Both the position numbers and the translations under genes were made by a program. Positions 39,983 through 57,657 of a DNA stretch of 64,000 nt are shown here, one piece after another. Position 1 is the first letter of the stretch. Every line of letters starts with the position of its first letter. Source of the stretch: Halorussus ruber. Lineage in GTDB: Archaea > Halobacteriota > Halobacteria > Halobacteriales > Haladaptataceae. The notes beneath the pieces were generated by a model. That model was not told where the DNA came from. It was given only the letters and a program-made list of their open reading frames with translations, and made no database searches. Where the stretch lies: positions 248,001 through 312,000 of the forward strand of contig NZ_SBIT01000006.1 in the NCBI RefSeq assembly GCF_004765785.1, in the 5' to 3' direction.

Positions 39983-41047
39983 ATGAAACAAGCTCACGTA
40001 CGACAAAGCATCAGTGAAGTGAACGAGGGGGCGTGGAACAACGTCGTAGAGCAGTCTGAAGGGGGGAGCGTTTTTCACCGGACGGGATGGCTCCGTGCTG
40101 TCGAGGAGGGACTCGGCAGACCGGCGCGCCATCTGGTCGTAGAGAAGAGCGGCAATCCGATAAGCGTCTTTCCGAACTTCCTCGTCGATATCTCTGTCCC
40201 CGATATCGGACCCGTCCCGTTCGACGGACTCGGACTGCGCCGTCTCACGTCTCTCAAACCGGGGTTCGGCGGTCCGGTGTTCGTCGGCGACGAACAGACG
40301 AACTTCGAGGTGACGTTCGACAACGCGAAACGACTGTTCGCGGAGACAGACGCTATGAGCCACCTGCTGAAGCCGTCTTCATCCAATTTTGCGAGGTACG
40401 CCTCGCAACTCGCGGACCGTGGGTATCGGTCGGAGGTCCGAAGCTGTCGCTTCGTCATCGACCTCCGGCAGGGGTGGGACGAGATTAAATCGAACATGCA
40501 CCGGTCGAAGCGGTCGAACCTCAAACGCGCGAGCGAGAACTCGGCGACGGTCGAGGACCGACAACTCGACGACGTCGCTCTGGAGGAGTTCTACAACACG
40601 TACACGTCGGCGATGGACCGCGTCGACGGAATCCAGTACCCGTTTCGGTTCTTCGAGGTGCTTCAGCGCGAACTCGCCGACCGCATCAAGTTGTTCACCG
40701 TCACCGCGGATGGGGAGTTCGCTGGCGGGCAGTTGTATCTGCTAGACGACGAGTCCTCCACTATGCACGAGTTCTTCCGGGGACTGGACGCGGAGTACTT
40801 CGAGTACAATCCCTCGGAACTCATCAGCGAACGAGCAATCAAGTGGGCGATCGAACACGGTTACGACGAGTACGACCTCGGCAGTACGGCCGCCGACTTC
40901 ACCAGCGGTTCGTTCACCTACAAAGAGGAACTCGGCGGAGAACTGCGACCGATTATCGTGTGGGAGCGCGGCGATTCGACGCCGCAGTGGCACATCTATC
41001 GGGCGGGCCGGTGGTTCGTCCGGAATCAGGACCGAATCAAGGCGTAG
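39983..41047 (+). CDS. FemAB-like acyltransferase, copy 1 (GNAT fold)
   Basis: 354 residues, no signal. Two GNAT-like halves: WNNVVEQSEGGSVFHRTGWL near the start and IKSNMHRSKRSNLKRASENS with EEFYNTYTSAMDRVDGIQYP, then ELADRIKLFTVTADGEFAGG and IKWAIEHGYDEYDLGSTAAD. This is the FemX/BioF2/PEP-CTERM-associated FemAB layout. FemAB proteins use aminoacyl-tRNA or acyl-CoA to add amino acids or acyl groups. Archaea lack murein, so the acceptor is unknown. It is one of three paralogues here. An A/T-rich TATTTTATG at 39920 is the likely promoter. Confidence 0.8.
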   Translation: MKQAHVRQSISEVNEGAWNNVVEQSEGGSVFHRTGWLRAVEEGLGRPARHLVVEKSGNPISVFPNFLVDISVPDIGPVPFDGLGLRRLTSLKPGFGGPVFVGDEQTNFEVTFDNAKRLFAETDAMSHLLKPSSSNFARYASQLADRGYRSEVRSCRFVIDLRQGWDEIKSNMHRSKRSNLKRASENSATVEDRQLDDVALEEFYNTYTSAMDRVDGIQYPFRFFEVLQRELADRIKLFTVTADGEFAGGQLYLLDDESSTMHEFFRGLDAEYFEYNPSELISERAIKWAIEHGYDEYDLGSTAADFTSGSFTYKEELGGELRPIIVWERGDSTPQWHIYRAGRWFVRNQDRIKA

Positions 41048-41073
41048 CGTGGACCGGAACCAGGGTCACGCTA

Positions 41074-41460
41074 TTACTCTATGCCGAACTCGTCTTCCAA
41101 CAGCGCGACGTTGCGCTCGTTGGCCTTCCAGACCGCGTCGATGATGGTCCCGAGGACAGGAATCGACCCGACGACGGAGTCGATGCCGATGTTGAGCAGC
41201 ATCTTCAGCACGGTGTCCCGGGAGGCACCCATCCGCGCCCCCTCGGCCACGATGTACAGCGAGATGGCCGCCGAGACGGCGTCACCGCCGACAGGCAGGA
41301 TGCCGAGGATGGGGTCGAGACCGATTTTGTAGTTGATGCCCGGAAGCTCGAACGCCTCGTCGAGGAGGTCCGCGATGGCCCGCACGCGCTCCATTCCCGG
41401 CGGTTCGTCCTCGACCGATACTTCGATGGGTTGTCCTTCTTCGTCGGGTCCGATGTCCAT
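41074..41460 (-). CDS. DUF4112 membrane protein
   Basis: 128 residues starting MDIGPDEEGQPIEVSVED. The core ADLLDEAFELPGINYKIGLD, then PILGILPVGGDAVSAAISLY and GSIPVLGTIIDAVWKANERN, is the DUF4112 signature: two membrane-associated helices, each after a Gly-Pro-rich turn. Function unproven. It is convergent with FemAB copy 1, with 26 bp between stops. Confidence 0.9.
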   Translation of the reverse strand: MDIGPDEEGQPIEVSVEDEPPGMERVRAIADLLDEAFELPGINYKIGLDPILGILPVGGDAVSAAISLYIVAEGARMGASRDTVLKMLLNIGIDSVVGSIPVLGTIIDAVWKANERNVALLEDEFGIE

Positions 41461-41506
41461 GTGCCCGGATTGGGCGCGCGAAGTCAAAGGCCTGCTGGCT
41501 ATCGGG

Positions 41507-42298
41507 TCACGTCACGAGGAAGTAGGGGTCAGACCGTATCTCGGGACTCGTCGCCGCCTCGATGTCGGCGATGGAAGCGACGAACACGCGCAATCCGTTC
41601 AAGTCGTACTCGTCCACGACCCCGCGCTCTCGCCAGTGTCGGTGGAGCTTCAGCTTGTTGAACCGCCAGAACCCGTCCCAGTACTGGCAGGTCTGCTCGA
41701 TTCGCCGGGACTGGTCTCCGTCGATGAGCGTCCCCTCGTAGGTGTCTTCGTACACGTAGGGGACCTCGTGCTTCGATTCGAGGTAGTGGAGGAACGAACA
41801 CATGAGCCACGGCGTGCCGATGCTGGCGAGCAACACGTCGTCGTCGCGCAACTGGGCGAAACAACCCTCGGGGCTGAAGGTGTCGTGATGGTTGCGCTCC
41901 TCGAATCGGTAGTCTCCGCGAACGAGAATCGACTTGCAGGCGTCGTCGGTCCGGTAGTCCGCGTCGCCCAGAAACAGCGAGTTGAACTTCCCGTACATCG
42001 GCCGGGAGTGTTCCTTGGCGTACACTCCCGACTTCCGGAAGTAGTCGGTGAACCCGGGGGCCAGAATCGAGTCGAAGTGACGCTCCAGCACGTCGAGGAC
42101 GGTTTCGTAGGGATTACCCGGTAGCGCCGCGTTCACGTCGCTCAGTCCCGCGTGGACGAAAACGGTGTCGTCGGCGTATCGCTCGAAGACGCTCGCAAAT
42201 CGTTCGGGGTCGGCGGGCTTGACCCGGCGCGGACGCTCGTGGAGCAACTTGTGGAGCGCGAAGTTGGGCCAGCGTTTCCAGTACTGCTCTCCGACCAT
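41507..42298 (-). CDS. AAC(3)-fold acetyltransferase-like protein
   Basis: 263 residues. The pattern matches the aminoglycoside 3-N-acetyltransferase (Antibiotic_NAT/YokD) family: VFVHAGLSDVNAALPGNPYE, a central TDYFRKSGVYAKEHSRPMYG (family: G..SE..R...SxHP), RNHHDTFSPEGCFAQL (SP..L with the upstream HH) and LLASIGTPWLMCSFLHYLES (IG...T..H..E). In surface-glycan loci such proteins acetylate sugars, not drugs. The SxHP loop is altered to SRPMYG, so activity is uncertain. Part of a minus-strand pair with the VpsJ-like gene. Confidence 0.7.
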   Translation of the reverse strand: MVGEQYWKRWPNFALHKLLHERPRRVKPADPERFASVFERYADDTVFVHAGLSDVNAALPGNPYETVLDVLERHFDSILAPGFTDYFRKSGVYAKEHSRPMYGKFNSLFLGDADYRTDDACKSILVRGDYRFEERNHHDTFSPEGCFAQLRDDDVLLASIGTPWLMCSFLHYLESKHEVPYVYEDTYEGTLIDGDQSRRIEQTCQYWDGFWRFNKLKLHRHWRERGVVDEYDLNGLRVFVASIADIEAATSPEIRSDPYFLVT

Positions 42299-42359
42299 CG
42301 TTCTCGTCGGATTCCACGCCGGTCGTTATACCAGTTGTGGGGACCGAACGAGCTACCAG

Positions 42360-43493
42360 TCAGGTTCTCGCTCGGGCGAGATTCCGGACCTCGTACTCCT
42401 CGCTGACGCTCATCAGCGCGTCCGAGAAGAACTTCACGCCCCAGTTGGGGTACCGGAGGAACATGTAGCGACCGAACACCGGGGACGACCCCGGGAGCGC
42501 ACCGTCGATTGCCGCCGGACCTCCGAGTACCTGCTTGCGCTTGAGAAACTGCACCGAGTTCCGGGCGGCCGCTCGGTACTCGTCGTTTCCGGTCTGGCGG
42601 TGGAGTATCGACCAGACGAGCGCCATCTGGGCGTTGCCCGTCAGACAGTAGTACCACGTGTCGTCCCACGAGTCGTCGAACGACCCCCGGAGTATTCCGT
42701 CTCGCTCCTGCATCGCTAACAGCCTGTCCGCCGACCGTCTGGCGGCGTCGACGATGGCTCGGTCTCGAAGCGCGATTCCGCCTTCGAGCAGCCCCCGAAT
42801 CGTGTACGCGATGGTGTGAAGGAAAGCGCGAGAGCCGTCTCCGAACCCCGCCCCGTCGAACCACCCGTTCGCCCGCTGTCGCCCCATCGCCCACTCGAAG
42901 TTGCTCCGGGCGGCCTCGCGGTATCTCGCCCGACTGTCCTCGACGAGTTCTCCTCCTTCGAGGAGCGCCCACGCGACCCGAGTCGAGTAGGTGTGGACGT
43001 TGTTCTTGTAGGTGTGGCGGTCCCAGTACCCCTCCGGGGACTGCTGTTCGACCAGCCAGTCGCAGGCCCGTATCGCGCTCCGGCGGTATCGGTCGTCTCC
43101 GGTCTCGCGGTAGGCCGCGACGAGGCCGAAGATGATTTGCCCGGTGTTGAAGACGCTCGGCCCCCCGCTCTCGCCGGTCCCCTCCGGAAACGCCCCGTCC
43201 GGGCGTTGGACTCCGAGGAGCCACTCGGCCATCTGCATCGCCCTGTTCACGAGCGAGGGCTCCTCTCGCTGGGTTCCGTATTCGAGCAACGTGGGGACGA
43301 TGTACCCCGTCGTTTCCGGATAGGCGTCTCCCCACCCCAAGACGAGGTTGTAACAGCTCGCAGACCCCCCGTTTCCGGTCACGTCCTGACTTCGGCAGAG
43401 CCACCGGAGCGCTCCCGCCAGATGCTGTTCGTCGGACCGCGGCCTTCCCTCGCCGCCCGCAAGCGCGTCCCACGCCGTCCCGAGTCGTCCCAT
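42360..43493 (-). CDS. VpsJ-like (alpha/alpha)6-barrel protein
   Basis: 377 residues composed of helical repeats with Gly/Trp turns: WLCRSQDVTGNGGSASCYNL, AEWLLGVQRPDGAFPEG, DWLVEQQSPEGYWDRHTYKN, FEWAMGRQRANGWFDGAGF, LLAMQERDGILRGSFDDSWD. The QxxDG(F/W) turns are of the squalene-cyclase/prenyltransferase-like alpha-barrel class, used by polysaccharide proteins such as VpsJ and by several uronate lyases and epimerases. No signal peptide. It likely processes or modifies a polysaccharide. The exact enzyme type is uncertain. It precedes the AAC(3)-like gene on the same strand by 61 bp. Confidence 0.65.
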   Translation of the reverse strand: MGRLGTAWDALAGGEGRPRSDEQHLAGALRWLCRSQDVTGNGGSASCYNLVLGWGDAYPETTGYIVPTLLEYGTQREEPSLVNRAMQMAEWLLGVQRPDGAFPEGTGESGGPSVFNTGQIIFGLVAAYRETGDDRYRRSAIRACDWLVEQQSPEGYWDRHTYKNNVHTYSTRVAWALLEGGELVEDSRARYREAARSNFEWAMGRQRANGWFDGAGFGDGSRAFLHTIAYTIRGLLEGGIALRDRAIVDAARRSADRLLAMQERDGILRGSFDDSWDDTWYYCLTGNAQMALVWSILHRQTGNDEYRAAARNSVQFLKRKQVLGGPAAIDGALPGSSPVFGRYMFLRYPNWGVKFFSDALMSVSEEYEVRNLARART

Positions 43494-43594
43494 TAGTACG
43501 ACTCCCTGACTACACAGGATGGTATTAACTTACTGGGGGTATCGGTCGCTTTCGGCGACAGATAGATGTGAGGCTGAGGCGTTAGGCAGAGAGA

Positions 43595-44308
43595 ATGACC
43601 GACGTACCAAGCGCGTTTACGGACGAGAAAAGAATCGACGCTACCGCTCAGTCGGTCGAGGAGGGGCTGTACGAGGTCGAGCGCCGAGCTATCGGCTCGC
43701 ACTTCACTCGGTCCGGCGCGACCGTCTTGGACCTCGGGTGCGGCACGGGTCGCACGACCGGCGTCCTCGACGAGATGGGGTTCGACGTCGTCGGCGTGGA
43801 CGTGAGCGAACCGATGGTCTCGCGCGCCCGGCAACTCTTTCCGCACATCGAGTTCCGGTCCGGCGACGCGCGGGACCTCCAGTTCGAAGACGAGCGCTTC
43901 GACTACGTCCTGTTCTCGTTCAACGGCCTCGACTACGTCAAGCCGGAGGGCGACCGATACGTGGCGCTGCGGGAAATCTGGCGCGTGCTGAAACCCGACG
44001 GCACGTTCGTCTTCAGTTCCCACAACCCGTTTTACTTGCTCCCCGCCGACCCGACGAGCCTCTACGGCTATCTCCACCTCGCCCGATTCTGGAAGCACAA
44101 TCTTTTCGACGGAACTATCGCGTCCCGGTACAAGACCGACGCCTATTCCGAGAAGGAAATAGACACCTACTTCATCTCGCCGCGGGGCCAGCACAAGCAA
44201 CTGGCCCGATGCGGCTTCGAACTCTTGGAAATCGTTCATAAGGAGATGCTACCGTCGGCGTGGCTCGACCCGTGGCCCTACTACGTCGCCGAGAAACGCC
44301 CGCAGTAA
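43595..44308 (+). CDS. Class I SAM-dependent methyltransferase
   Basis: 237 residues. SAM-binding motif I VLDLGCGTGRTTGVLDEMGF, motif II DVVGVDVSEPMVSRARQL, motif III SGDARDLQFEDERFDYVLFS and motif IV IWRVLKPDGTFVFSSHNPFY are all present. The C-terminal half (YLHLARFWKHNLFDGTIASR) is aromatic and specific. In this region it probably methylates a sugar or an amino-sugar carboxylate. It starts its own plus-strand unit just before the ATP-grasp gene. Confidence 0.9.
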   Translation: MTDVPSAFTDEKRIDATAQSVEEGLYEVERRAIGSHFTRSGATVLDLGCGTGRTTGVLDEMGFDVVGVDVSEPMVSRARQLFPHIEFRSGDARDLQFEDERFDYVLFSFNGLDYVKPEGDRYVALREIWRVLKPDGTFVFSSHNPFYLLPADPTSLYGYLHLARFWKHNLFDGTIASRYKTDAYSEKEIDTYFISPRGQHKQLARCGFELLEIVHKEMLPSAWLDPWPYYVAEKRPQ

Positions 44309-44474
44309 CGGTTTCTCGCCGACGGACCGGACCGCAACATCGGCACGCAGAATCATAAAAAACTATACTTTACGGCGAGTTCTCACTAATAACTATAGGA
44401 AAATAAACGATTACATGAGTCATTGATTGGAATACTACTAAGACTCGTTCTACCTTCGTAGCATTCGCATCCGC

Positions 44475-45740: not shown

Positions 45741-45824
45741 CCGGCCAGTAACCATCAGTCCGGGCCGCCGTACCTCTTGGTCTGGGTCGCCGTCTTCGTT
45801 GGTCCCTGCCGCCCCATTCCGGAG

Positions 45825-46859
45825 TCACGTCGATTTGGAATCGGCGTACCGCTGGTACATCCCTCGCGCGAACTTGTACATCGGCCACACGACCGGCGAA
45901 CAGCCCCGTTCCCAGCAGAGGGCCGGGACCGGTTTCGCGCCGAACTTCTCCTTGAACCGGAACACGCCGTCCCTGAAGTCGCCGGTCGTCCCGCCGAAGT
46001 TGTACGTCTCGTAGCCGTTCTCTTGGCCCCACTTGATGGCGTACTCGTGGAGGAGTTCCGAGGGATGATACTCGAAGTCCGCCTCGGTGATTCCCGACAG
46101 TTCGTAGTTGAGCGTCGATTGGCCCTCGTCGAGTGTGAGGAGTATCGTGCCGCGCTCGCCGCCGTCGACTCGGAGCGTCAGCAGTTTCAGTCGGTCGGCC
46201 ATCTCGGTCAGTTCGAGGAAGAAATCCCGCGTGTACTCGTCGCCGTCGACCCGGTCCATCACCGACGAGAGCTTGTCGAAGAACGCCGACATCGACTCCT
46301 CGGTGATGTCCTCGTCCACCACCTCGAAGTCCTGTTCGTGACCGCTCCTGATGGCGCGCCGCCGCGAACTGTGCATCTCCTCCTTTATCGTCTCCCAGTC
46401 GTCCGTGATGTCGAGCAGGAAATCGCAGTAGTCGAACTTCGACTCGTATCCGTTCTCCCGGAAGAGTTCGTTGTACCGACTGAACTTCGACTTGGTGGTG
46501 TGGACCTTGTTCGAGACGACGGTCCTGTCCCCGATTTCGGGCACCGCGCTCAGGAACGACTCCATGACCTCCTCGGTGTCCGTGGTCGCTATGGGACCGG
46601 CGGAACCGGGCTTGGGCGGATAGAGGTGCTGAACCGGCAACGTATCGCCCTCCCGGAGGAAAATCGGAAAGACGCCCACCGGGTTGCCGCTCTTGGACGC
46701 GACGAGGTGTCTCGGTTCGTAGTCGGTCCCGTCCTCCATCGCCCGCAACCACTCGTAGCGGTGGTACACCTGTCCGAGTTCGGCTTGTTCGACCACGTTG
46801 TTCCACTGATTTCGATTGACGGACTCGATGGTATCGGTGCTGTAGACGTCTACTGCCAT
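45825..46859 (-). CDS. FemAB-like acyltransferase, copy 2
   Basis: 344 residues from ATG 46859. It shares the layout of copies 1 and 3: RNQWNNVVEQAELGQVYHRY, IKEEMHSSRRRAIRSGHEQD, FDKLSSVMDRVDGDEYTRDF, then LLHEYAIKWGQENGYETYNF and GTTGDFRDGVFRFKEKFGAK. It is more divergent than the other two. It converges with the intact ATP-grasp gene, which could link their activities. Substrate unknown. Confidence 0.8.
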   Translation of the reverse strand: MAVDVYSTDTIESVNRNQWNNVVEQAELGQVYHRYEWLRAMEDGTDYEPRHLVASKSGNPVGVFPIFLREGDTLPVQHLYPPKPGSAGPIATTDTEEVMESFLSAVPEIGDRTVVSNKVHTTKSKFSRYNELFRENGYESKFDYCDFLLDITDDWETIKEEMHSSRRRAIRSGHEQDFEVVDEDITEESMSAFFDKLSSVMDRVDGDEYTRDFFLELTEMADRLKLLTLRVDGGERGTILLTLDEGQSTLNYELSGITEADFEYHPSELLHEYAIKWGQENGYETYNFGGTTGDFRDGVFRFKEKFGAKPVPALCWERGCSPVVWPMYKFARGMYQRYADSKST

Positions 46860-47135
46860 TTTGTTCTCCCCCGAATGTACCTCTCTGACGAGAATCGGGA
46901 TGAAAAAAGGTTTGGCTAAATGATACACGGCCGCAACTATGCGGAAATTGCAGAGCCGACCCACGAGAGCTAAACGGGCCGTATTCCTCCGTTAATCGAG
47001 TAACGACGGCCGAAAGTGACGATTGGTTCTCACTCTCGCGGAAAAATTTACAATACGTCGTTCACATCGACTTTTCCCAATAATTCCGTGATAACGGCGA
47101 GAATATTTACAACGTCGGAGCCGGAGATTTCGAGT

Positions 47136-48494
47136 ATGGTGGGGATGTCGAACGGACGACCAGCATCTTTGACACCCAGTAGCACGCAAGATTCGCCGGG
47201 GTACCCCTGCGTTCGGTCGCTCGGCCGACGCGGCGTCCGCACGATATACGGGACGAAGTACGGCGAAAGCACGATTTCCTCCTCGCGCTACTGCGACGAG
47301 ACCGTCGAACTTCCGGTTCCGGACGAGGACGTCGCCGCCTACAAGGATGCGCTCCTTCGCGTCGCTTCTCGGCCCGACGTGTGCACCATCGTCCCGACCA
47401 ACGAGTACGACGCCTTCGTCCTCTCGAAGTTCAAATCCGAATTCGACCCGTCGGTCTCGCTCCCGGTGCCGTCGTTCGAGACCCTCGGCGTCGTCTACGA
47501 CCGGATGCGGTTGTTCGCGGCGGCCGAGGCGGCTGGCGTCCCGATGCCTGAGACGATGTCGTTCGACGAGGTCACCGACTAGGACCGGGAGCTAACCGTG
47601 AAAGCCCGGTACAACCTCGTCACGAACGACTACGACGAGTCGTGCCCGCCCAACGAGGGCCACCGGGTCAAAGACGTGGCGCACCTCCGCGTGGGCGAGA
47701 CGCCCGACTCCGACCAGACCGTTGAGGAAATGAAGCACGTCCCATCGCCCAGGAGTACGTCCCGTGCGAAAACGAGTACATGGTCGGCGCGCTGCGTCGA
47801 GACGGCGACCCGGTTGCGACGGTTCAACTCGACCAGATTCGAGAGGACTCCTACAAGGGCGGCGGGGGCGTCTACCGGAAATCGACCTACGACCCGGAAC
47901 TCGACCGGGTGGCCCGCGACCTCCTGGCGGAACTGGACCGGACTGGCGTGTCTCGAATACATGGAGGACGACGAGACGGGCGAGTTCGAACTCGCCGAAA
48001 TCAACCCGCGGATGTGGCAGTCGATGGCCCCGGCCGTTCGGGCGGGGCAGGACTTCCCGTACTACTACTGGCTGATGGCGGCGGGCGAGACCGACCGCAT
48101 CGACCCCGACTACGAGTTGGGCGTCGGAAGCCACCTGCTGGCGGGCGAGGCCCAGCACTTAAAGAGCATCCTCGACGAGGACTCCCCGCGGGTCGAGAAA
48201 CCCGACTTCGCCGCCGCGGTCGCGGCGGTCGCGCTCTCGTGTCTGGTCGAACCGCGCTTCGACATCTTCCGGTTCGACGACCCGGCCCCGTTCGCCTTGG
48301 CCGCGTTCGCGGGCGTCCGGAACCGACCGCATCGCTCTGAGCGCGACCACTCTCCGAGCGCGAATCGCTCCGACCCCGAACTGCTCGACTCGCTCCGACC
48401 CGACGGCCCACAAACGCTATTTGCTCCGTCGTCGTCCGTATCAGGTATCCCACGGCGTCGCCCGGACCGCTGGCGTCGGACGAGACACGAATGA
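47136..48494 (+). pseudogene. Decayed ATP-grasp ligase paralogue
   Basis: This is a second copy of the ATP-grasp gene at 44475. It is readable from end to end in shifting frames, with three lesions. A TAG at 47580-47582 replaces the TGG of the intact copy's NWDREL. One base is lost at about 47740 relative to CACGTGCCCATC. About five bases are lost at 47936-47945, restoring the frame. The region between is read correctly in another frame (YMVGALRRDGDPVATVQ...). The ends are well conserved (GQDFPYYYWL, LKSILDEDSPRVEKP), so inactivation appears recent. Start taken at ATG 47136. Confidence 0.85.
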
Positions 48495-48697
48495 GCTTCC
48501 GATTCGACATCGAGCGCGTCGTCCTCGGCGTCGTCGCGCTCGGCATGGCCGCGTTCTTCGCCGCGCACAGCTTCGTGCTTCTGAAGGGGAGCGACGAGCA
48601 GACGATGACGCTGGTCCGCTCGACGTGGTTGCTGGGTCTCGTCGTGTTACTCCTCGTCGGCGGCTTTCTCACCGCGGCGCGGCGCAACGCCGCCTGA
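48491..48697 (+). CDS. 68-residue two-span membrane protein
   Basis: MSFRFDIERVVLGVVALGMA then FFAAHSFVLLKGSDEQTMTL and SWLLGLVVLLLV-type second helix (STWLLGLVVLLLVGGFLTAA) ending in RRNAA. Its ATG overlaps the terminal TGA of the decayed ATP-grasp gene. No known family. The coupling may mean it once formed an operon with that gene. Function unknown. Confidence 0.6.
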   Translation: MSFRFDIERVVLGVVALGMAAFFAAHSFVLLKGSDEQTMTLVRSTWLLGLVVLLLVGGFLTAARRNAA

Positions 48698-48737
48698 GGG
48701 CGGCGCTCGTCGGTCAGAAACCCTCGTACTGCGCCGG

Positions 48738-49871
48738 TCACCGAACCTCGTACATCCCGAGTGACCAGTGGTTCGGCCCGAACGCGCGGCCGCCCCACCC
48801 GACGTTGCCATCGACCGCGCACCGCCAGCCGTCGGCGGTGTACCACGGGTCGATGTGGTGCATCCGGCCCGAGTTCCACCCGAGCCGCCGGTTCGACCCT
48901 TCGAGAATCGGCGACTCTGGGCGCTCGCGGTCGGCGTAGGCCGTCGGCGAAAGCTCCTCGACGTCGAAGGCCCGGACCTTGTCGCCGTACTGGGCCGCGC
49001 AGTCCTGAAAGAAGACCACAATTCCGTCTTCGGTGACAATCGGGCGGCCCGCGGGTCGCCCGGCCTCGGGGCGGTCGGGCGCGACGGGGTTGCGCTCGTG
49101 GGGCGTCCACCCGTCGCGCAGGAGGTCGTCGCTGTAGTACAGACACAGGTCGTGGTTGCCGTCGTCGCTCCCGAGCATCGCCCACCACAGGTCGTTCCAC
49201 CGGAACAGCACGCAGTCGGCGAGCTGTCGGTCCGGGTCCACGACGGTCGAGACGGGCCGCCAGCCGCCGGGCAACGAGTCGGTCTCGAAGAGGCGCACCG
49301 TCGCCGGTCGCTCGCGGTTCCACCGGTCCGGAACCATGTAGAACGTTTCTTCCAATTTAAATATATATGGAAAAGCAAGGTGTATCTTGTCTTTCAGCAC
49401 GACGCGGTCGTACTCCCACGACCGACCGCGGTCGGTGCTGGTGGCGTGGCCGACGACGCCGGTCGGTCGCCGGTCGCGGTTGTAGACCTCGAAGAAGAGC
49501 CGCCACGGGCCGGTCTCGGGGACGTACAGGAAGGGGTCGGCGACGAGGTCTACCGCCCCGTAGTCGGTCACGTCGGACGCGGTCAGGACCGGATTCGACG
49601 CCGACGCCATCGGGACCGGCCGGAAGGGCGGGGCACTCGACGCGCCGTCGAGGTGGAAGGGCCGAATCCGGTGGTCCGCGGACTGCTCGGCGGCTTCAGC
49701 GCCGGATCGGCCGGACTTATCGGACTGATGCGGTCGCTCGCGCTCGCGGCGAGCGCGAGCGACCGAGTCGAGGAGTCCGTCACCGAGTCGCCGGTGGACG
49801 AACTCTCCGGCCGTCCACCGGGCCGCGTGGGCGTACCGATTCGACCCGAGTCGAGAGACGATTCGCCGCAT
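48738..49871 (-). CDS. GINT1_N-like five-bladed beta-propeller protein
   Basis: 377 residues from ATG 49871. After a basic N-terminal tail come propeller motifs: VADPFLYVPETGPWRLFFEV, VVGHATSTDRGRSWEYDRVV, HLAFPYIFKLEETFYMVPDR, CVLFRWNDLWWAMLGSDDGN, RPAGRPIVTEDGIVVFFQDC. These match the glucosamine inositolphosphorylceramide transferase N-terminal (GINT1_N) / GH43-like fold, seen in bacterial polysaccharide loci. A local A/T-rich spot at 49353-49370 lies inside the gene. Probably a glycan-modifying or -recognising protein; the reaction is not known in prokaryotes. Confidence 0.72.
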   Translation of the reverse strand: MRRIVSRLGSNRYAHAARWTAGEFVHRRLGDGLLDSVARARRERERPHQSDKSGRSGAEAAEQSADHRIRPFHLDGASSAPPFRPVPMASASNPVLTASDVTDYGAVDLVADPFLYVPETGPWRLFFEVYNRDRRPTGVVGHATSTDRGRSWEYDRVVLKDKIHLAFPYIFKLEETFYMVPDRWNRERPATVRLFETDSLPGGWRPVSTVVDPDRQLADCVLFRWNDLWWAMLGSDDGNHDLCLYYSDDLLRDGWTPHERNPVAPDRPEAGRPAGRPIVTEDGIVVFFQDCAAQYGDKVRAFDVEELSPTAYADRERPESPILEGSNRRLGWNSGRMHHIDPWYTADGWRCAVDGNVGWGGRAFGPNHWSLGMYEVR

Positions 49872-50141
49872 CGTTACGCCGGTCCCTCGCCAGACCTCGA
49901 CTGTTCGAGGGCCGTCGTTTTCCACCGAGCGCGAGCGACCGAGGTCGGGTGTCGGCGCGGGCGATTCATGCCACTCCCGACGACGGCGCGCCTCAAAAAA
50001 GGAAGCTATCTTGTGGTATGCGAACGAATGTCAATATATCTCACTTTACGGTCCGCCAGAGTTCAAATGGCCACCATGATTAATATGAAATGCAGGCTTT
50101 GATACGACAGGTGTCCGCCAAGGGGGATTCCAGATATTTCC

Positions 50142-51224
50142 ATGAGTGAGAAAAATTTTCAAATATACGATAGTATAAACGACCTCAACGAGAACCAATG
50201 GAATGACGTGGTGAAGCAGTCCGACCGGGGGAGTGTCTTCCACCGGGCCGGATGGCTCCGAGCAGTCGAGGAGGGCCTCGACCGGTCGGCGAGACATCTC
50301 GTCCTCGAGAAGGGGAACAACCCGATTGCGCTTCTGCCGAACTTCGTCAGGCGGGTCGAGTTGCCGTCCTCGCTCCCGTCGGTCGTGGACCGACTCGACG
50401 CCAAGCGCCTCACGTCAATCGAACCCGGATTCGGCGGGCCGCTGTTCATGGGGAGCGAGCGGTCGAACTTCGAGATGATGTTCGACCACATCGACCGCCT
50501 GCTCGAACGCGACGACTTCGTCAACCACCGCGTGAAGGCGGCCAACGACGAGTATCTGCGCTACTCTCGACCGTTCTCGGAGTACGGCTATCAGCTCAGC
50601 TCCGGCGTCTGTCGGCTCGTCATCGACCTCGACCAAGGCTGGGAGTCCATCGAGTCGAACATGAACAAGTCCAAGCGCTCGAACATCTCCAAGGCCCGGG
50701 AGAACGACGCGACGGTCTACGAGCGCTCGCTCGAAGGCGAGGCCCTCGAGCGGTTCTACGAGACCTACCAGCAGGCCATGGACCGCGTCGGCGGGACCGC
50801 CTACCCCTACGCCTTCCTCGAACGAATCGGCGAGGAGTTGGCCGACCGGACCGAACTCTTCACGGTCGAGGTCGACGGCGAGTTCGCGGCCGGTCAGGTG
50901 TATCTCGTCGACGACGAGCAATCGTCGGTCCACTGCTTCTTCCAAGCGGTCGACGCGGACTACTTCGACTACTACCCGTCGGAACTCCTCGACGAGTACG
51001 GGATGAAGTGGGCCATCGAGCGCGATTACGGCGAGTACGACCTCGGAAGCAGTCCGTCTGACTTCACGGACGGCTCGTTCCGGTACAAGAACGAACTCGG
51101 TGCCCAACCCCGGCCGGTCCTCTCCTGGGAACGGGGCTGTTCGCCCATCAAGTGGCCGATGTACCGCCTCGGGCGCTGGTACCTCAAGAACCGTAACGGG
51201 TCGAGCGAACTCTCCTCTGCGTAG
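50142..51224 (+). CDS. FemAB-like acyltransferase, copy 3
   Basis: 360 residues and clearly a sister of copy 1: FHRAGWLRAVEEGLDRSARH compared with FHRTGWLRAVEEGLGRPARH. Core: IESNMNKSKRSNISKARENDA, YQQAMDRVGGTAYPYAFLER, then ELFTVEVDGEFAAGQVYLVD and MKWAIERDYGEYDLGSSPSD. The C-terminus is less conserved. Its 3' end overlaps the convergent 51184 gene by 41 bp. Likely acyl or aminoacyl transfer onto a surface glycan. Confidence 0.82.
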   Translation: MSEKNFQIYDSINDLNENQWNDVVKQSDRGSVFHRAGWLRAVEEGLDRSARHLVLEKGNNPIALLPNFVRRVELPSSLPSVVDRLDAKRLTSIEPGFGGPLFMGSERSNFEMMFDHIDRLLERDDFVNHRVKAANDEYLRYSRPFSEYGYQLSSGVCRLVIDLDQGWESIESNMNKSKRSNISKARENDATVYERSLEGEALERFYETYQQAMDRVGGTAYPYAFLERIGEELADRTELFTVEVDGEFAAGQVYLVDDEQSSVHCFFQAVDADYFDYYPSELLDEYGMKWAIERDYGEYDLGSSPSDFTDGSFRYKNELGAQPRPVLSWERGCSPIKWPMYRLGRWYLKNRNGSSELSSA

Positions 51225-53193
51225 TGACCGCGTGCGCTCTCCGCTCGGTTTCACTTGATAGCGCGTCGGCTTCATCGCCTTCGCCCGGTAGCGCGACGTT
51301 CTGTTTGATTTCACCAGGTAGCGAGACGCTTTGGTTCCCGCTAGTTAGCGCGGCGCTCCCGTTTGTGCTAGTCCCGTTCGCGGCCGTCCGGTTCGCTCGA
51401 CCGACGCCGCTGACCACGTAGAGGTCGAGCGTCCCGTCGTCGTAGACGTGTCCGACCGACGGCTTGCGTTCGAGGCGGTCGAAGTCCTCGGGCGAGTGAC
51501 GCCAGAACTCCCGGTAGTTCGGGTACAACCGGGGGTTGCTGACGCGACCGAGTTCGGTCGTCACGAGGTAACGCCGGTCGGCGACCGCGCTCGACGGTAG
51601 CTCCTCGGCCGACGCGTTGGCGTAATCGAAGTGGTCGGGCGGGGGTGGGAGTTCGAACCGGATGTTCTCTGTCTCCTCCAAGTTCTCGTAGGTGGACATC
51701 CGGTACTGGCTGATTCCCAGTTGGTCGATGGCGAGCGACTGGTTGCGGTGTTGGAACGTCCACTCCATGCCCTCGACCTCGGCCTCGGTAATCTGGAGGT
51801 TCGAGCCGTTCGACAGGGGCGAGGAGTAGAGGTAGAACACCGAGAGGAAGGCGAGCGCGAACAGCGAGGCGTACGCTACCGGCCGGAGATACCTCGCGGC
51901 GGCGTCGGCGTCGAGCCGCCGGAACAGCGTGTAGAACCCGGCACCGACGAGGACGACGCCCGCCAGTCGGGCGTACCGAACGACCCGGTAGAAGCCGATG
52001 GTCACGTCCACCGCGAAGGCGAGGGCGGCACCGACGGTGAACACGCACAGCGTGCTGGCGAGGAAGGCCTCGATGGGGTCGAACGCTCGCTCGCCGCGCG
52101 CCACGAGGAGGGCGTAGTAGCCGACGAACACGAACGCCATACCGATTATCGCCCCGACGAGGCCGTAGGTGTAGATTCCGACGAGCGCGATGTCGGAGAT
52201 CGCCGGGGTCGTCCGCGAGAAGACCGACGCGATGTTGCCGAGCTGGGACGACCCCTCCGAGACCCCCATCAGCGTGTAGACGATGATGAGCGTGCTACCG
52301 ATAATCGACTCGAAGGAGTAGTACCACGCGAAGAAGAGGACGAACGCGAGGACGGCGACGACGAGCGGCGACCTGCGGGTCACCGTGGTCGTGCCTGCGA
52401 GGCGTTTGCTCCCAATCACGGAGAGCCACAGCAGGCCCAGCATCCCGACGAAGAACACCGTCACGACCGGATGGTAGAACGTGATGGAGACGACGACGAC
52501 CAACAGCGCGGCCCTGAACCGGGTCGTCGCTCGGCCGCCGTAGCTCCGGAAGAGGAGGTAGAACGCGAAGGGAAGCGTCATGAACGCGAAGACGCTCGGG
52601 TGGAAGAAGACGTGTTCGCCGCTGAACAGCAGCAGCGAGGAGAACGGGAGGACGAAAAGCACCTTCCGCGACCCGCCGAAGGTGACGTTCAGAAGCGGGT
52701 ACAGCGAGACGATGTAGAACAGCGAGGCCACCGGCGGCAGGACGTTGATGACCGTCGAGGGCGCGATTCCGGTCGCGTAGGACACCGTCAGCGCGAGCAG
52801 GTGGACGTTCGGGTAGTAGTTGGTCCGGGGCACCGCGCCGAGGTCGCCGATGCGCCGAATCATGCCGATGTACGTGAGCATGTCTCCTCGGGCGAACAGT
52901 TCGTAGCGGAGCGCCGGGATGAACAGCAGGACGGCGTTGACCGCGAGGACGAGCGCCAGTCCCCACTTCCAGTATCGGTGCCACCGCTCGGGATAGCCGC
53001 CCTCGAAGATGACGAGTTGGCCGAAGAACACCGCAATCAGCGCGAGGAGCCAGAACGGGAGCGGGTAGGCGTCGTACACCGATAGCTCGTAACTGGTCGC
53101 TTGGGGGTCGGCGGCGACGAAGACCAGCGCGACCGCCGTGGCGGCGGCTCCGACCGCGAGCAGTAGCTTCAGCCGGATTCGTCGCTCTACCAC
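51184..53193 (-). CDS. GT-C-like multi-pass membrane protein
   Basis: About 669 residues if the start is the GTG at 53193; a GTG at 53202 is equally possible and the frame is open to 53343. Twelve or more membrane helices begin with LKLLLAVGAAATAVALVFVA. The first large extracellular loop contains ALRYELFARGDMLTYIGMIR and TNYYPNVHLLALTVSYATGI, resembling GT-C glycosyltransferases that use lipid-phosphate sugars, although no clear DxD motif is visible. The C-terminal 150 residues are soluble and Asn/Thr/Ser-rich with several N-glycosylation sequons. Its convergent 3' end overlaps FemAB copy 3. Confidence 0.75.
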   Translation of the reverse strand: MVERRIRLKLLLAVGAAATAVALVFVAADPQATSYELSVYDAYPLPFWLLALIAVFFGQLVIFEGGYPERWHRYWKWGLALVLAVNAVLLFIPALRYELFARGDMLTYIGMIRRIGDLGAVPRTNYYPNVHLLALTVSYATGIAPSTVINVLPPVASLFYIVSLYPLLNVTFGGSRKVLFVLPFSSLLLFSGEHVFFHPSVFAFMTLPFAFYLLFRSYGGRATTRFRAALLVVVVSITFYHPVVTVFFVGMLGLLWLSVIGSKRLAGTTTVTRRSPLVVAVLAFVLFFAWYYSFESIIGSTLIIVYTLMGVSEGSSQLGNIASVFSRTTPAISDIALVGIYTYGLVGAIIGMAFVFVGYYALLVARGERAFDPIEAFLASTLCVFTVGAALAFAVDVTIGFYRVVRYARLAGVVLVGAGFYTLFRRLDADAAARYLRPVAYASLFALAFLSVFYLYSSPLSNGSNLQITEAEVEGMEWTFQHRNQSLAIDQLGISQYRMSTYENLEETENIRFELPPPPDHFDYANASAEELPSSAVADRRYLVTTELGRVSNPRLYPNYREFWRHSPEDFDRLERKPSVGHVYDDGTLDLYVVSGVGRANRTAANGTSTNGSAALTSGNQSVSLPGEIKQNVALPGEGDEADALSSETERRAHAVTTQRRVRSTRYGS

Positions 53194-53400
53194 CGACCCC
53201 ACCCCATCGTTCGCTCGGACGACCCCCTCGGTCTTGGTTTTTCTGGCGTCACCGGAAATTTGGCGGCTGTTAGCGAGTGACACGCCACTTGCGGTGCGTC
53301 TGCGGCATGCGGCGGGAACATTTATCCTCGGGTTTGCCGTCACTCCCCCTGTGCAACGACCGATGGGGGGCCGGGTTTTCAGCGCCCAGGGTGGATACTG

Positions 53401-54822
53401 ATGGACGTCAGTCGCTCTAGCTTCAAAATCTTCCTCGCCGAATCGCTCGGGATGGTGCTCTCGTTAGGGGGCATCACGTACTTCGCCCGCGAACTCGGCT
53501 CCGGCGAACTCGGCGCGTTCTTCCTGTTTCAGGCGCTGCTGTTCTTCCTCGCCGTGCCCTCGGACATGGGCGTCAGAATCGCGGTCGAGAAGCGAATCAG
53601 CGAGCGGTCGAACCCCGATTCGGTCCTCTCTACGGCCCTGCTGATGAAACTCGGGCTGTTGTCGCTCACCGTGACCGGCGTGTTTCTGGCGGGCGGGCTG
53701 GTCCGCTCGTACATCGGCTACGACCTCGTGGCGTTCCTCGCGGTCGGTATCGTGCTGCAAGAGCTGTCCGGGCTGATGAAGAACGTCCTCGCCGGGGAAC
53801 TCCGGGTGGGCGAGACCGCGTCCATCGACTTCGCAAACACGCTGACGAAGTACGGCGTCGGAGCGGTCTTGGTCTACGCCGGGTACGGCGTCGTCGGACT
53901 CGCCGCGAGCGTCCTCGCCGGGTTGTTCGTCCGACTCGTGTTAGCGTACCGCGCCTGCGACACCGGGTTCGGTCGCCCCAGGAAGGACGTGATGCGCTCG
54001 CTCGGTAACTACGGGAAGTACGCGATTCTTCCCCATATCGGTAGGCAGGTCCACCAGTGGATGGACGTGTTACTCCTCGGGTTCATGCTGACGACGAGCG
54101 CGGTCAGCGTCTACGAACTCGCGTGGCGGGTCGCGGGGCCGGTGTTGCTGTTGTCGCGGTCCATCGGCACGGCCATCTTCCCGCAGTTCAGTTCGTGGGA
54201 CTCCGCGGGGTCCCGAGAGGCCATCGAACGGCTGTTCTCGAACATCATCACGCCCTCGCTGTTGCTGGTCTTCCCGGCCCTGTTCGGGGCGGCGGTCCTC
54301 TCGCGGGAGATTCTCTCGCTGGTGTTCGGGGCCGAGTACGCCGCGGGCTGGCTCGTGCTAATCGTTCTCATGGCCGGGAAGATTCCGGGTGCCGTCCAGA
54401 GCATCGTGGGACGGTCGCTGTACGGTCTCGACGAACCCCAGTACGTCACTATCGGAACCACGGTCACGATAGCCACCAACCTCGTGTTCAACGTCCTCCT
54501 CATCTGGCAGTTCGGCGTCGTCGGCGCGGCGCTGGGCACGATGGCGTCTCGGACCATCTCGACGGGCCTCCAGTTCTACTTCCTCTCGGAACTCATCGAC
54601 GTGCGCATCCCCTACGACGAACTCGGCTGGTGTCTCGGCGCGTCCGCGGTCATGGCCGCCGTCCTCTCCGCCGTCAAGACGACGGTCGCGGTCGATTCGG
54701 TCGTCCGACTCACCGGGTTCGTCCTCGCCGGAGCGGCGCTGTACGGCGCGTTCGTGGCGATGTATCCGCCGCTCAAGAACCAGATCACGACTCAAATCCA
54801 GAAGTCGGTCCCGTGGACCTGA
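53401..54822 (+). CDS. MATE/Wzx-type polysaccharide flippase
   Basis: 473 residues, about 12-14 spans. LGMVLSLGGITYFARELGSG and LGAFFLFQALLFFLAVPSDM at the N-terminus, then GKYAILPHIGRQVHQWMDVL, VFPALFGAAVLSREILSLVF and a LVFNVLLIWQFGVVGAALGT segment near the centre of the second half match MurJ/Wzx-like lipid-linked oligosaccharide flippases. It would move a lipid-linked glycan across the membrane. It is the only flippase in the window and ties the surface-glycan genes together. It begins 57 bp after the first in-frame ATG of the upstream intergenic region. Confidence 0.9.
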   Translation: MDVSRSSFKIFLAESLGMVLSLGGITYFARELGSGELGAFFLFQALLFFLAVPSDMGVRIAVEKRISERSNPDSVLSTALLMKLGLLSLTVTGVFLAGGLVRSYIGYDLVAFLAVGIVLQELSGLMKNVLAGELRVGETASIDFANTLTKYGVGAVLVYAGYGVVGLAASVLAGLFVRLVLAYRACDTGFGRPRKDVMRSLGNYGKYAILPHIGRQVHQWMDVLLLGFMLTTSAVSVYELAWRVAGPVLLLSRSIGTAIFPQFSSWDSAGSREAIERLFSNIITPSLLLVFPALFGAAVLSREILSLVFGAEYAAGWLVLIVLMAGKIPGAVQSIVGRSLYGLDEPQYVTIGTTVTIATNLVFNVLLIWQFGVVGAALGTMASRTISTGLQFYFLSELIDVRIPYDELGWCLGASAVMAAVLSAVKTTVAVDSVVRLTGFVLAGAALYGAFVAMYPPLKNQITTQIQKSVPWT

Positions 54823-55016
54823 AGCGTCTCGGCTCTGAGAAATAATTTCAATTGTTAAAAATAACTAATTCAGTTTTAGAGGAACTACTACATTGTTCTG
54901 TTCGGCTTACGCCGTCGGGAGCCGCGAACGGCTTCCCGCGTGTGCCGCCGGTAGGCAAACCGTACCCGCCGAACGGGCCGAAGCTATTTCCGGTCGTTCA
55001 TCGTGCCTTCTGTAGA

Positions 55017-56498
55017 ATGATTCCGCCGAGGCAGTACTACCTCACGTCCACGCGCCCCGAGGAGATTCCGGACGGGTATCGGTCGGTGTCGGTCGACGAC
55101 TGGCACCTCGTCTTCGACGACAGTTTCGACTCGCTCCCGGTCGTGGCCGACGGCGAGCGCGTCGGCCACGTCGTCGGGACGATACTCGACGTGCGCGACC
55201 GGCGCGAGGACGGCGAACTCCGGCTCTCGCCCGGCGACGCGGACTCGCTCGACGCGGCGTTTCAGGACGCGCTCGTGGACTTCGCCGGGCACTTCCTCGG
55301 TCTCCTCGACGCCAACCAGTCCTCGGCGTACACGGACCCCATCGGCGGGTGTCCGCTCGTCTACGACCCCGACGAGGGCGTGGCCGGGGCGACGCCCGCC
55401 GCGCTTCCGGGCATCGACCGCGAGGCGCGCTTCCAGACCGCGCTCTTCGACCGGCTGAACCACAACGAGGACTACATCTTCCTCCCCGGGGCCGTCACCT
55501 ACTACCGGAACGTCGAGCGCCTCCTCCCGAATCACCGTCTGGACCTCGATTCGTGGGAGACGACCCGATTCTGGCCCTCGGACCCGGAGGCCATCTCGAC
55601 TTACGACGAGACGACCGCCGTCGCCGAGTCCATGAGCCAACTGCTCCGCGACGTGTTCGCGGAAATCGCGGCGACCTACGAGAACCCGGTCAATCCCCTG
55701 ACCGCGGGGCAGGACTCGCGCACCCTGCTGGCGGCGGCGCGTCCGTGGGTCGCCGACGGTGACATCCAGACCGTGACGTGGGACACCGGCGAACTTGTAG
55801 ACGTTGACATGGACGTTGCGCGGCGACTCTCGGCCAACCACGAGGTCGATTGGAACCCGGTCCCGACCGTGACCGCGACCGAGGCCCAGAAGCGGTGGTG
55901 GCTGGAGACTACCGGCCACGCCGTCGGCGGCACCATCAAGGACATCCACCCGACGCTGGAACTGTTCGACGCCGACCTGCACGTCAACGGGTTCGGCGGC
56001 GCAATCGCCCGCGGGAAGTTCTGGGAGGACGCCGACGGCCCCGACTCGACGTTCGACGCGGGCGAACTCCTCGCCAGACTCCACCGCCCGGAGGACCCCG
56101 TTCTGGAGGAGGCAGTCGAGGAGTGGTACGAGGGCGTCTCGCAGTTCGACGCCTACACCCAGTTGGACCTCGTGACCCAAGAACTCCGGTACGGCTGTTG
56201 GGCCGGGCCGCACTTCCCGGGGCTGGCGCGCCACCGCGACGTGGTGTCGCCGCTGGCGTACTTCCCGGTCGTCCGCGAGATGTTCCGGTTGGCTCCGCCG
56301 GTCCGCCGGAACGGCAACGTCCAGCACCTCATCGTGGACCGGTTGTGGTCGGAACTGAACGAGTACCCTTACAACATGTTCACCGACTGGCGGGAGTTCG
56401 TCCGGCGCGCCAAGCACCTCAAGTACAAGTCCCAGTACGCGGCCAAGCGTCCCGACCTCGTCTACTCCTTCCTCAGTCGGAAGCTCACCGGCGAGTAG
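55017..56498 (+). CDS. Asparagine-synthase-like protein
   Basis: 493 residues from ATG 55017 (MIPPRQYYLTSTRPEEIPDG); upstream extension looks noncoding. It has an N-terminal Ntn-like part without the catalytic Cys2 and a C-terminal ATP-pyrophosphatase part: NPVNPLTAGQDSRTLLAAAR is the PP-loop, degenerate compared with SGGxDS. QTVTWDTGELVDVDMDVARR follows. GGTIKDIHP and the WAGPHFPGLARHRDVVSPLA segments are typical of polysaccharide-locus relatives. It therefore may not use glutamine and could amidate or couple another amine. The two coding ends overlap the next gene by 14 bp. Confidence 0.78.
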   Translation: MIPPRQYYLTSTRPEEIPDGYRSVSVDDWHLVFDDSFDSLPVVADGERVGHVVGTILDVRDRREDGELRLSPGDADSLDAAFQDALVDFAGHFLGLLDANQSSAYTDPIGGCPLVYDPDEGVAGATPAALPGIDREARFQTALFDRLNHNEDYIFLPGAVTYYRNVERLLPNHRLDLDSWETTRFWPSDPEAISTYDETTAVAESMSQLLRDVFAEIAATYENPVNPLTAGQDSRTLLAAARPWVADGDIQTVTWDTGELVDVDMDVARRLSANHEVDWNPVPTVTATEAQKRWWLETTGHAVGGTIKDIHPTLELFDADLHVNGFGGAIARGKFWEDADGPDSTFDAGELLARLHRPEDPVLEEAVEEWYEGVSQFDAYTQLDLVTQELRYGCWAGPHFPGLARHRDVVSPLAYFPVVREMFRLAPPVRRNGNVQHLIVDRLWSELNEYPYNMFTDWREFVRRAKHLKYKSQYAAKRPDLVYSFLSRKLTGE

Positions 56499-57657
56499 GA
56501 GCAGGGCTATTCGCCTTCGACCGGTTGTCCTCGAACAGCAGTTTCTCGTAGTCCGTGACGACGTTCTCCGCCGTGAAGTCCATCGCCCGGTCGCGCAGTC
56601 GCCCCGGGTCCGGCGGGTCCCGAAGCGTCGAGTACATCGCCGCCGCGAGGGCGTCGGCGTCCTCCGTCGGCACGAGCGGCCCGAACTCCCCGTCGTTCAG
56701 AATCTCTCTGGGACCCTTCGAGCAGTTCGTCGAGACCACGGGGCACCCGAAGGCCATCGCCTCGATGAGCGTGGACGGGAGCGCCTCGGAGTTCGAGGAG
56801 ACGGCCAACACCGACGCCTCTCGCATGTAGGGGTAGGGATTGTCCGTACTGCCGGGGAGCGCGACCGACTCGTCCAGCCCCAGCTCCTCGACGCGGGCCT
56901 CCAACTTCGGTCTGGTCTGGCCCTCGCCCAGAATCATCAATCGGGCGTCCATCTCCTCCCGAAGGCGGTCGAACGCCTCGATTAGCAACGAGTAGTTCTT
57001 GTAGGGGTGGAGCCGCCCCGCCGCGAGGACGACCGGCGCGTCGTCCTCGAACCACGGGTGGTCGGGCGACTGCTCGCCCTTCTCCAGCAGTTCCGGCGTC
57101 ACGACCGGATTGTAGACGACGGAGACGTCCTCCTCGGCGATGCCCAGCACCTCCGCCGCGTCGGTCTTCACGCCCTCGGAGACCGCCACGATGCGCCCGG
57201 CCCGCGGGTAGAGGTACTTCGAGAGTTCGGTCTTCGCGGCGTGTGTCAACTCGTCGGCGTTCGCTATCTGGTCGGAGGTCATCCCGTGAAAGCTGACGAC
57301 GGTCCGGGTCGAGACCGACGCGAGGTGCCGTGCGAGTATCGCCACCATGTTGGGGTTCGGCTTCCCCGTGAGGAGGGCGTCGGGTTCGACGCGCCGGAGG
57401 TACCGCGCCAGCGGGACCACGCTGGCGAAGATGCCGATTCCGGGTGCCCGTCCCCGGTCGATTTCCATCGTCCGAACGTCGTCGGGCACCTCCGGCCGGA
57501 AGGCTCCCTCCTCGGAGACGAGGAGCAAATCGACCTCGTATCCCCGCTCGGTCAACTCGTCGATGAGGTTGACCAGCACGCGCTCGACGCCCCCGATTTC
57601 GAGATGGGTGTGAAAGATAGCGACGCGCCGGTCTCCCCCGGACTCCTCGTCGGTCAT
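56485..57657 (-). CDS. GT4-family glycosyltransferase 1
   Basis: 390 residues, GT-B fold. Acceptor side: VAIFHTHLEIGGVERVLVNL. Donor side: VLAAGRLHPYKNYSLLIEAF, LMILGEGQTRPKLEARVEEL, and SVLAVSSNSEALPSTLIEAM, the E-x7-E-type motif. AFGCPVVSTNCSKGPREIL closes the site. It transfers a sugar from a nucleotide donor onto a growing glycan at the membrane's inner face. The start was taken at ATG 57657. Overlaps the asparagine-synthase-like gene at the 3' ends. Confidence 0.92.
   Translation of the reverse strand: MTDEESGGDRRVAIFHTHLEIGGVERVLVNLIDELTERGYEVDLLLVSEEGAFRPEVPDDVRTMEIDRGRAPGIGIFASVVPLARYLRRVEPDALLTGKPNPNMVAILARHLASVSTRTVVSFHGMTSDQIANADELTHAAKTELSKYLYPRAGRIVAVSEGVKTDAAEVLGIAEEDVSVVYNPVVTPELLEKGEQSPDHPWFEDDAPVVLAAGRLHPYKNYSLLIEAFDRLREEMDARLMILGEGQTRPKLEARVEELGLDESVALPGSTDNPYPYMREASVLAVSSNSEALPSTLIEAMAFGCPVVSTNCSKGPREILNDGEFGPLVPTEDADALAAAMYSTLRDPPDPGRLRDRAMDFTAENVVTDYEKLLFEDNRSKANSPAPTRR

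Follow-up and report, generated by a model that had tools for sequence, protein, structure and literature searches.

FemAB-family transferases in a plasmid-borne surface-glycan locus of Halorussus ruber: a possible amino-acid decoration pathway in a haloarchaeon

The Wbp/Vim pathway of P. gingivalis and T. forsythia yields linking sugars which have been characterised by mass spectrometry as N-seryl-uronamide and N-glycyl-uronic acid, respectively (PMC7468200). Within this pathway deacetylation is the task of VimE, the amino acid is placed by VimA, a match to the family model TIGR03019, and the amide is formed by WbpS, an enzyme of the AsnB type; these roles were assigned from a VimA swap and a wbpS deletion analysed by mass spectrometry, and that VimA itself is the catalyst is an inference of that paper (PMC7468200). 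Among the archaea, glycine is present in the wall of Halococcus morrhuae, from which N-glycyl-glucosamine has been reported (PMC4187196 and its reference 41), the link between glycine and glucosamine dating back to a report of 1979. Haloarchaea can, therefore, carry aminoacylated amino sugars. The literature searched yielded neither a haloarchaeal gene for a step of this type nor a paper joining FemAB with haloarchaea. Here, we describe a gene cluster of Halorussus ruber which harbours three FemAB-family genes along with an ATP-grasp ligase, a flippase and further genes of glycan assembly (Table 1). It lies within a stretch of 64,000 nucleotides, referred to as the window, which corresponds to positions 248001-312000 of a contig of 390,210 bp (C4). 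With slightly more confidence than doubt we regard it as a megaplasmid-borne, flippase-type surface-polysaccharide locus containing a module for decoration with amino acids or amides.

Fold and active-site lysine of the FemAB-family proteins

A sequence-only reading of this DNA had proposed three FemAB-like genes within about 11 kb, and all three products indeed score above the cut-offs of the Pfam models Acetyltransf_6 (PF13480; 52, 40 and 62 bits, cut-off 22 bits) and FemAB (PF02388; 34, 41 and 34 bits, cut-off 24 bits). They represent three of only five PF13480 genes of the genome and sit within 11.3 kb of the window. The premise that FemAB proteins are inherently surprising in an archaeon proved weak, since PF13480 proteins are encoded in 47 of 59 related genomes; distant FemAB matches are also present in a planctomycete and in a member of the Terriglobia (L133 and L135). 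An orthologue of FemAB 1 (67% identical) occurs in the genome G016, and orthologues of FemAB 2 (60% identical) adjoin an ATP-grasp gene both there and in G006.

The AlphaFold2 model of FemAB 3 (pLDDT 91.9, pTM 0.88) has the double-GNAT fold of FemX, the other two proteins being assigned by alignment only. In a Foldseek search this model retrieves FemX, S. aureus FemX, the peptide synthases Sba18/Sbb17 and FemA as top matches, with MprF and acyl-CoA-dependent tandem GNATs ranking below. The similarity to Weissella FemX and to Sba18/Sbb17 (TM-scores of 0.72 and 0.83 by target length) is accompanied by a sequence identity of only 14-18%. All 33 aligned homologues from haloarchaea retain Lys316, which lines up with the FemX motif FK (F304-K305); Lys305 is the active-site lysine of FemX (PMC12945691). 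The fold, this catalytic lysine and the operon context of relatives point to aminoacyl-tRNA as the donor and to a sugar as the acceptor.

Related operons in haloarchaea and bacteria

The full logic of the Wbp/Vim type, consisting of WbpA/B/E/D/I-like genes, a VimE-like deacetylase and a FemAB, is found in the same genome on another contig (C6, ~272600-280350; L010:8620-16348), not within the window. There, the FemAB gene overlaps that of the VimE-like deacetylase by 4 nt and is accompanied by genes for a UDP-GlcNAc 2-epimerase (WecB), a dehydrogenase, a Gfo/Idh oxidoreductase of the archaeal UDP-GlcNAc 3-dehydrogenase family, a DegT aminotransferase and a left-handed beta-helix acetyltransferase. 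The match of the deacetylase to VimE, a UDP-diacetamido-glucuronate deacetylase, is at the superfamily level (2.1e-14; 53 bits versus an equivalog cut-off of 440 bits), and the motifs LTHDVD, HGS, RQH and LWHPR are conserved. In six of eleven cases a VimE-like gene is located at most 216 bp from a FemAB gene on the same strand. The same operon, with two FemABs, is present on plasmids of Haloferax alexandrinus and Haloferax mediterranei, and the C6 cluster is probably a core archaeal operon of the Wbp/Vim kind. A second FemAB gene occurs together with two phosphodiesterase genes about 15 kb away from it (L011:3752-4774). Putative genes for a UDP-diacetamido-uronic acid, a VimE-like deacetylase and a FemAB liken the C6 operon and the Haloferax loci to the bacterial pathway, VimA matches the same TIGR03019 family, and an analogue of WbpS (AsnB type) is found in Haloferax mediterranei; the differences consist in the archaeal host, in the low VimE score, in the window locus having no recognised VimE or WbpB/E/D gene, and in its extra FemABs, ATP-grasp ligase and alpha/alpha-toroid protein.

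This makes the Wbp/Vim pathway a closer comparison than the XrtA-type exosortase loci to which the cluster had been likened from its sequence, and it should replace them. XrtA/PEP-CTERM exopolysaccharide loci do share the kind of parts: on the N. vulgaris plasmid (L181) a FemAB gene overlaps a polysaccharide deacetylase gene and occurs with a DegT aminotransferase, a "sugar-transfer associated ATP-grasp" protein and a flippase. The FemABs of the window, however, reach 56-68 bits against the 260-bit cut-off of TIGR03019, the genome contains no match to the exosortase model PF09721, which also misses the archaeosortase of Haloferax volcanii, and archaeosortase A is present but encoded on a different contig (C11), not in the flanks of the locus. 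The XrtA/archaeosortase link was dropped on these grounds. As a separate observation, the window encodes at 2208-3236 (minus strand) a predicted Thr/Glu-rich secreted protein whose end, PGFDF followed by a hydrophobic stretch and RR, is PGF-CTERM-like and marks it as a likely archaeosortase substrate; a signal-peptidase-like gene (3233-3799, minus strand) adjoins it.

The polysaccharide locus on plasmid pHME505 of Haloferax mediterranei resembles the window locus in that it comprises two FemABs, an AsnB-related gene, an ATP-grasp gene (50% identical), a homologue of the polytopic membrane protein, a flippase and a DUF1616 gene. It also contains a toroid gene. It differs by deacetylase and WbpB/E/D diacetamido-uronic-acid genes inside the locus, and its FemABs belong to the core clade rather than to that of the window, being about 24% identical.

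In the 30 related genomes for which strong matches to FemAB and to this ATP-grasp family are both listed, an ATP-grasp gene of the family lies no more than 10 kb from 8 of 63 FemAB loci, against 0.93 expected for uniform placement, a statistic which overstates the case because glycan genes cluster anyway. Other Halorussus retain an ATP-grasp gene with FemAB of group 1 and with FemAB of group 2, and genes for an ATP-grasp protein, a toroid protein and a FemAB stand in a row in four loci (L126, L127 and L131 of the Natrialbaceae, and L161); the series is found in Natrarchaeobius, Natrialba and G086. The toroid family is represented in 51 of 195 haloarchaeal genomes; the sampled neighbourhoods contain a FemAB in 15 of 20 cases, a fraction slightly biased upwards since a few were picked knowing that a FemAB is nearby, and a deacetylase in 7 of 20. 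A scattering of FemAB genes without partners had been named beforehand as an outcome that would refute the sequence-only reading. The picture is mixed, as many FemABs have no ATP-grasp gene close by, yet most sampled toroid neighbourhoods contain a FemAB, some of them with a deacetylase. The toroid-family protein of Haloferax alexandrinus (L148:17222-18538) carries the annotation "antibiotic ABC transporter permease", which is probably wrong because it is 47-53% identical to toroids of other FemAB loci.

Gene content and setting of the locus

In a plasmid collection the best DNA matches of the window are Halorussus plasmids, the first being one of 414,603 bp from Halorussus limi; judged from these matches, the replicon of about 400 kb is plasmid-like, probably a megaplasmid. 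The surface-glycan island spans 38-64 kb of the window. The corresponding site of sister Halorussus plasmids is bounded by a DUF4112 gene and an alpha-amylase-family gene, with varying content in between, and the locus is a variable surface-glycan island. FemAB together with ATP-grasp is found at this site in Halorussus salilacus, Halorussus limi and the genomes G008 and G016. Directly past the end of the window follow genes for a UDP-GlcNAc 2-epimerase (WecB) and a UDP-ManNAc-type dehydrogenase (L007), which makes UDP-ManNAcA a likely precursor.

Table 1. Genes of the surface-glycan island, in window coordinates.
Feature	Position	Strand	Remarks
Type I phosphodiesterase / nucleotide pyrophosphatase	38173-39828	-	PF01663 122 bits
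FemAB-family transferase 1, 354 aa	39983-41047	+	PF13480 52 bits, PF02388 34 bits; invariant Lys in alignment
AAC(3)-fold N-acetyltransferase-like protein	41507-42298	-	PF02522 27.9 bits, just above cut-off 25
Alpha/alpha-toroid protein (SQHop/Pec_lyase/C5-epimerase superfamily)	42360-43493	-	
Class I SAM methyltransferase	43595-44308	+	Methyltransf_25 86 bits
ATP-grasp carboxylate-amine ligase, 421 aa	44475-45740	+	NCBIfam PRK12767/PRK06849 family, below equivalog cut-offs; ATP-grasp fold by Foldseek
FemAB-family transferase 2, 344 aa from ATG 46859, reading frame open to 46964	45825-46859	-	PF02388 41 bits, PF13480 39.5 bits
Degraded second ATP-grasp copy	~47193-48368	+	55% identical over 376-395 residues; one in-frame TAG and a frame change
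GINT1_N-type protein	48738-49871	-	PF24793 135 bits
FemAB-family transferase 3, 360 aa	50142-51224	+	PF13480 62 bits, PF02388 34 bits; FemX-like AlphaFold2 model
Polytopic membrane protein, possible polymerase or GT-C	51184-53202	-	No Pfam match; homologues in other FemAB/flippase loci including Haloferax mediterranei
Polysaccharide flippase, MurJ/Wzx-type, MOP superfamily	53401-54822	+	PF13440 76 bits, MurJ 59 bits
Possible AsnB-like PP-loop ligase	55017-56498	+	TAGQDSR motif; no Pfam or PF00733 match
GT4 glycosyltransferase	56485-57657	-	PF00534 123 bits
GT4 glycosyltransferase, outside the interval of the sequence-only reading	59487-60956	-	PF13692 70 bits
GT2 glycosyltransferase, outside the same interval	60977-62323	-	PF00535 94 bits
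DUF1616 membrane protein, common in such glycan loci	62537-63565	-	PF07760 342 bits

The ATP-grasp ligase, the AAC(3)-fold protein and the flippase were all correctly recognised from the sequence. The ligase gene is intact, and the predicted structure of its product (pLDDT 91.7) retrieves ATP-grasp enzymes as top Foldseek matches, including biotin carboxylase, a carbamoyl-phosphate-synthase-like protein, PylC and L-amino acid ligases; Lys152 and the motif E285-x-N287-P-R, which include metal/ATP residues, are invariant in 42 homologues. The degraded second copy, whose match in a second frame extends over 47738-48061, had been overlooked, as had the GINT1_N gene and the toroid gene; its break may be due to decay or to a sequencing error of the draft genome. 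In Haloterrigena turkmenica a member of the ATP-grasp family overlaps an AsnB-related gene, and on contig C9 of the present genome an AsnB-type gene precedes another member. GINT1_N genes are recurrent neighbours, adjoining ATP-grasp in five further loci (L078, L092, L096, L101 and L107), and PF01663 phosphodiesterase genes lie beside or near FemAB in L011, L093, L114-L116 and L119.

The asparagine-synthase-like assignment of the gene at 55017-56498 is weak. Its TAGQDSR motif is that of a PP-loop and is kept in two distant haloarchaeal relatives, but there is no Pfam match and a search of the genome with PF00733 (E<=1) misses the gene. Since neither these models nor the relatives give family-level support, AsnB identity was rejected. 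The gene is rare, occurring in 3 of 146 genomes. Of the several glycosyltransferases claimed, one is clear within the proposed interval while two more lie just outside. The AAC(3)-like protein is 43% identical to a domain of a 562-residue protein encoded in a FemAB locus (L116:3999-5687, minus strand), which carries this domain at its C-terminus behind about 390 unassigned N-terminal residues; a flippase is also present in that locus. The toroid protein of the window shows remote similarity (E 1e-5) to a single FemAB-adjacent member of the conserved toroid family (L126), and a search with the family found no member in the genome of Halorussus ruber. We therefore did not count it as a member.

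Scans of the window with Rfam models and for tRNA genes gave no matches. Elsewhere in the window, a predicted secreted, mucin-like protein with long ETTTTTEEPV repeats is encoded at 29480-31312 (plus strand), and the product of 9084-10307 (plus strand) is, with 17% Lys+Arg, basic in an otherwise acidic proteome and resembles OrfB/TnpB of the IS605 type.

Proposed working, alternatives and meaning

In the working we propose, UDP-ManNAcA would be supplied by the epimerase and the dehydrogenase encoded downstream of the window, and the glycosyltransferases would assemble a lipid-linked repeat. The FemABs would acylate the free amine of an amino sugar with an amino acid, for which aminoacyl-tRNA is the most likely donor, and the ATP-grasp ligase, perhaps together with the PP-loop protein, would make an amide or amino-acid amide at the uronic carboxylate, uronic acid amidation being the probable role of this enzyme. 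The flippase would export the finished repeat. The whole scheme would work like the bacterial Wbp/Vim pathway. That haloarchaea possess a true counterpart of the latter, in which FemAB N-aminoacylates amino-uronic sugars after their deacetylation, with aminoacyl-tRNA as the donor, and ATP-grasp/AsnB enzymes amidate them to give aminoacyl surface polymers, is a tentative proposal whose chances we rate somewhat below even. The amide- or peptide-modified surface polymer suggested by the sequence-only reading retains the support of the FemABX fold, the FemX lysine, the FemAB/ATP-grasp linkage, the parts shared with Haloferax mediterranei and the C6 operon; its XrtA model does not hold.

Several observations weigh against such a decoration module. 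In a pairwise alignment R211 of FemX faces Tyr, and the position of K36 (M in the 1xe4 mutant) faces Val. Judging from FemX mutagenesis, we take both residues to be contacts to the UDP-MurNAc-pentapeptide substrate; as they are not kept, the haloarchaeal acceptor cannot be inherited from FemX, and it must differ from that of FemX since archaea lack peptidoglycan. No VimE-like, WbpB, WbpE or WbpD gene is recognised in the window locus, only WecB and the dehydrogenase being nearby; nor does contig C4 contain a match to the polysaccharide deacetylase model PF01522, which does not detect the VimE-like family. In many Halorussus the same ATP-grasp family occurs alone, beside a DHDPS-family gene, at a conserved site of the chromosome that is no glycan locus; it is, therefore, not specific to glycan loci, and at the plasmid site of Halorussus pelagicus (L101) ATP-grasp is present without FemAB. 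Finally, amino acids are absent from the published exopolysaccharides of Haloferax mediterranei and Haloferax denitrificans, which consist of hexoses, sulfate and amino-uronic acids in N-acetylated form (PMC3191746). Haloferax mediterranei and a congener of Haloferax denitrificans carry such a gene set, possibly for these very polymers. These published structures speak against FemAB aminoacylation being universal.

That the known Haloferax polymers carry only N-acetyl (PMC3191746) would fit FemABs which are plain N-acyltransferases, dependent on acetyl-CoA for example, that re-acylate sugar amines to give a polymer bearing acetyl groups and no amino acids. Many homologues are annotated "GNAT family N-acetyltransferase" by NCBI, and a VimE-like deacetylase could also free amines for nothing more than re-acylation. 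Nevertheless, the nearest structures are aminoacyl-tRNA-dependent enzymes, tandem-GNAT acetyltransferases ranking lower, and the acetyl-CoA signature [QR]xxGx[GA] is no conserved feature, with scattered matches in 12 of the 33 homologues in all of which the FemX lysine is invariant; we consider this explanation unlikely, though worth keeping in mind. Another view holds that there is no joint pathway and that a polymorphic glycan island has gathered unrelated enzymes, the FemAB, ATP-grasp, AAC(3)-like and AsnB-like proteins acting on different molecules or partly decaying. It appears improbable, given that FemAB groups 1 and 2 have each stayed with ATP-grasp in other Halorussus and that cassettes of ATP-grasp, toroid and FemAB recur in another family, even though gene content differs strongly among Halorussus plasmids, one ATP-grasp copy is degraded, ATP-grasp also occurs outside glycan loci and the AsnB-like protein is rare. 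MprF-type lipid aminoacyl transferases among the structural matches could suggest a lipid or, as in a modification of S-layer or pilin, a protein as FemAB acceptor. MprF, however, ranks under FemX and Sba18, and the context is one of glycan assembly with flippase and sugar-nucleotide genes, which renders a non-glycan acceptor very improbable.

Since relatives of these FemABs are paired with the partner genes which bacteria use to place serine or glycine on surface sugars, archaea probably make amino-acid-bearing surface sugars. The question is testable because the set of deacetylase, FemAB, toroid and ATP-grasp is conserved, including in the genetically tractable Haloferax mediterranei. If amino-acid decoration holds true, such loci could supply the missing genes for walls of the N-glycyl-glucosamine type such as that of Halococcus, a genus not among the matches of a scan of named genomes with window-type FemABs, which was not aimed at it. 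It could provide a free amine at the cell surface for protein anchoring, and it would extend FemAB-type aminoacylation of surface sugars to the Archaea, organisms without peptidoglycan.

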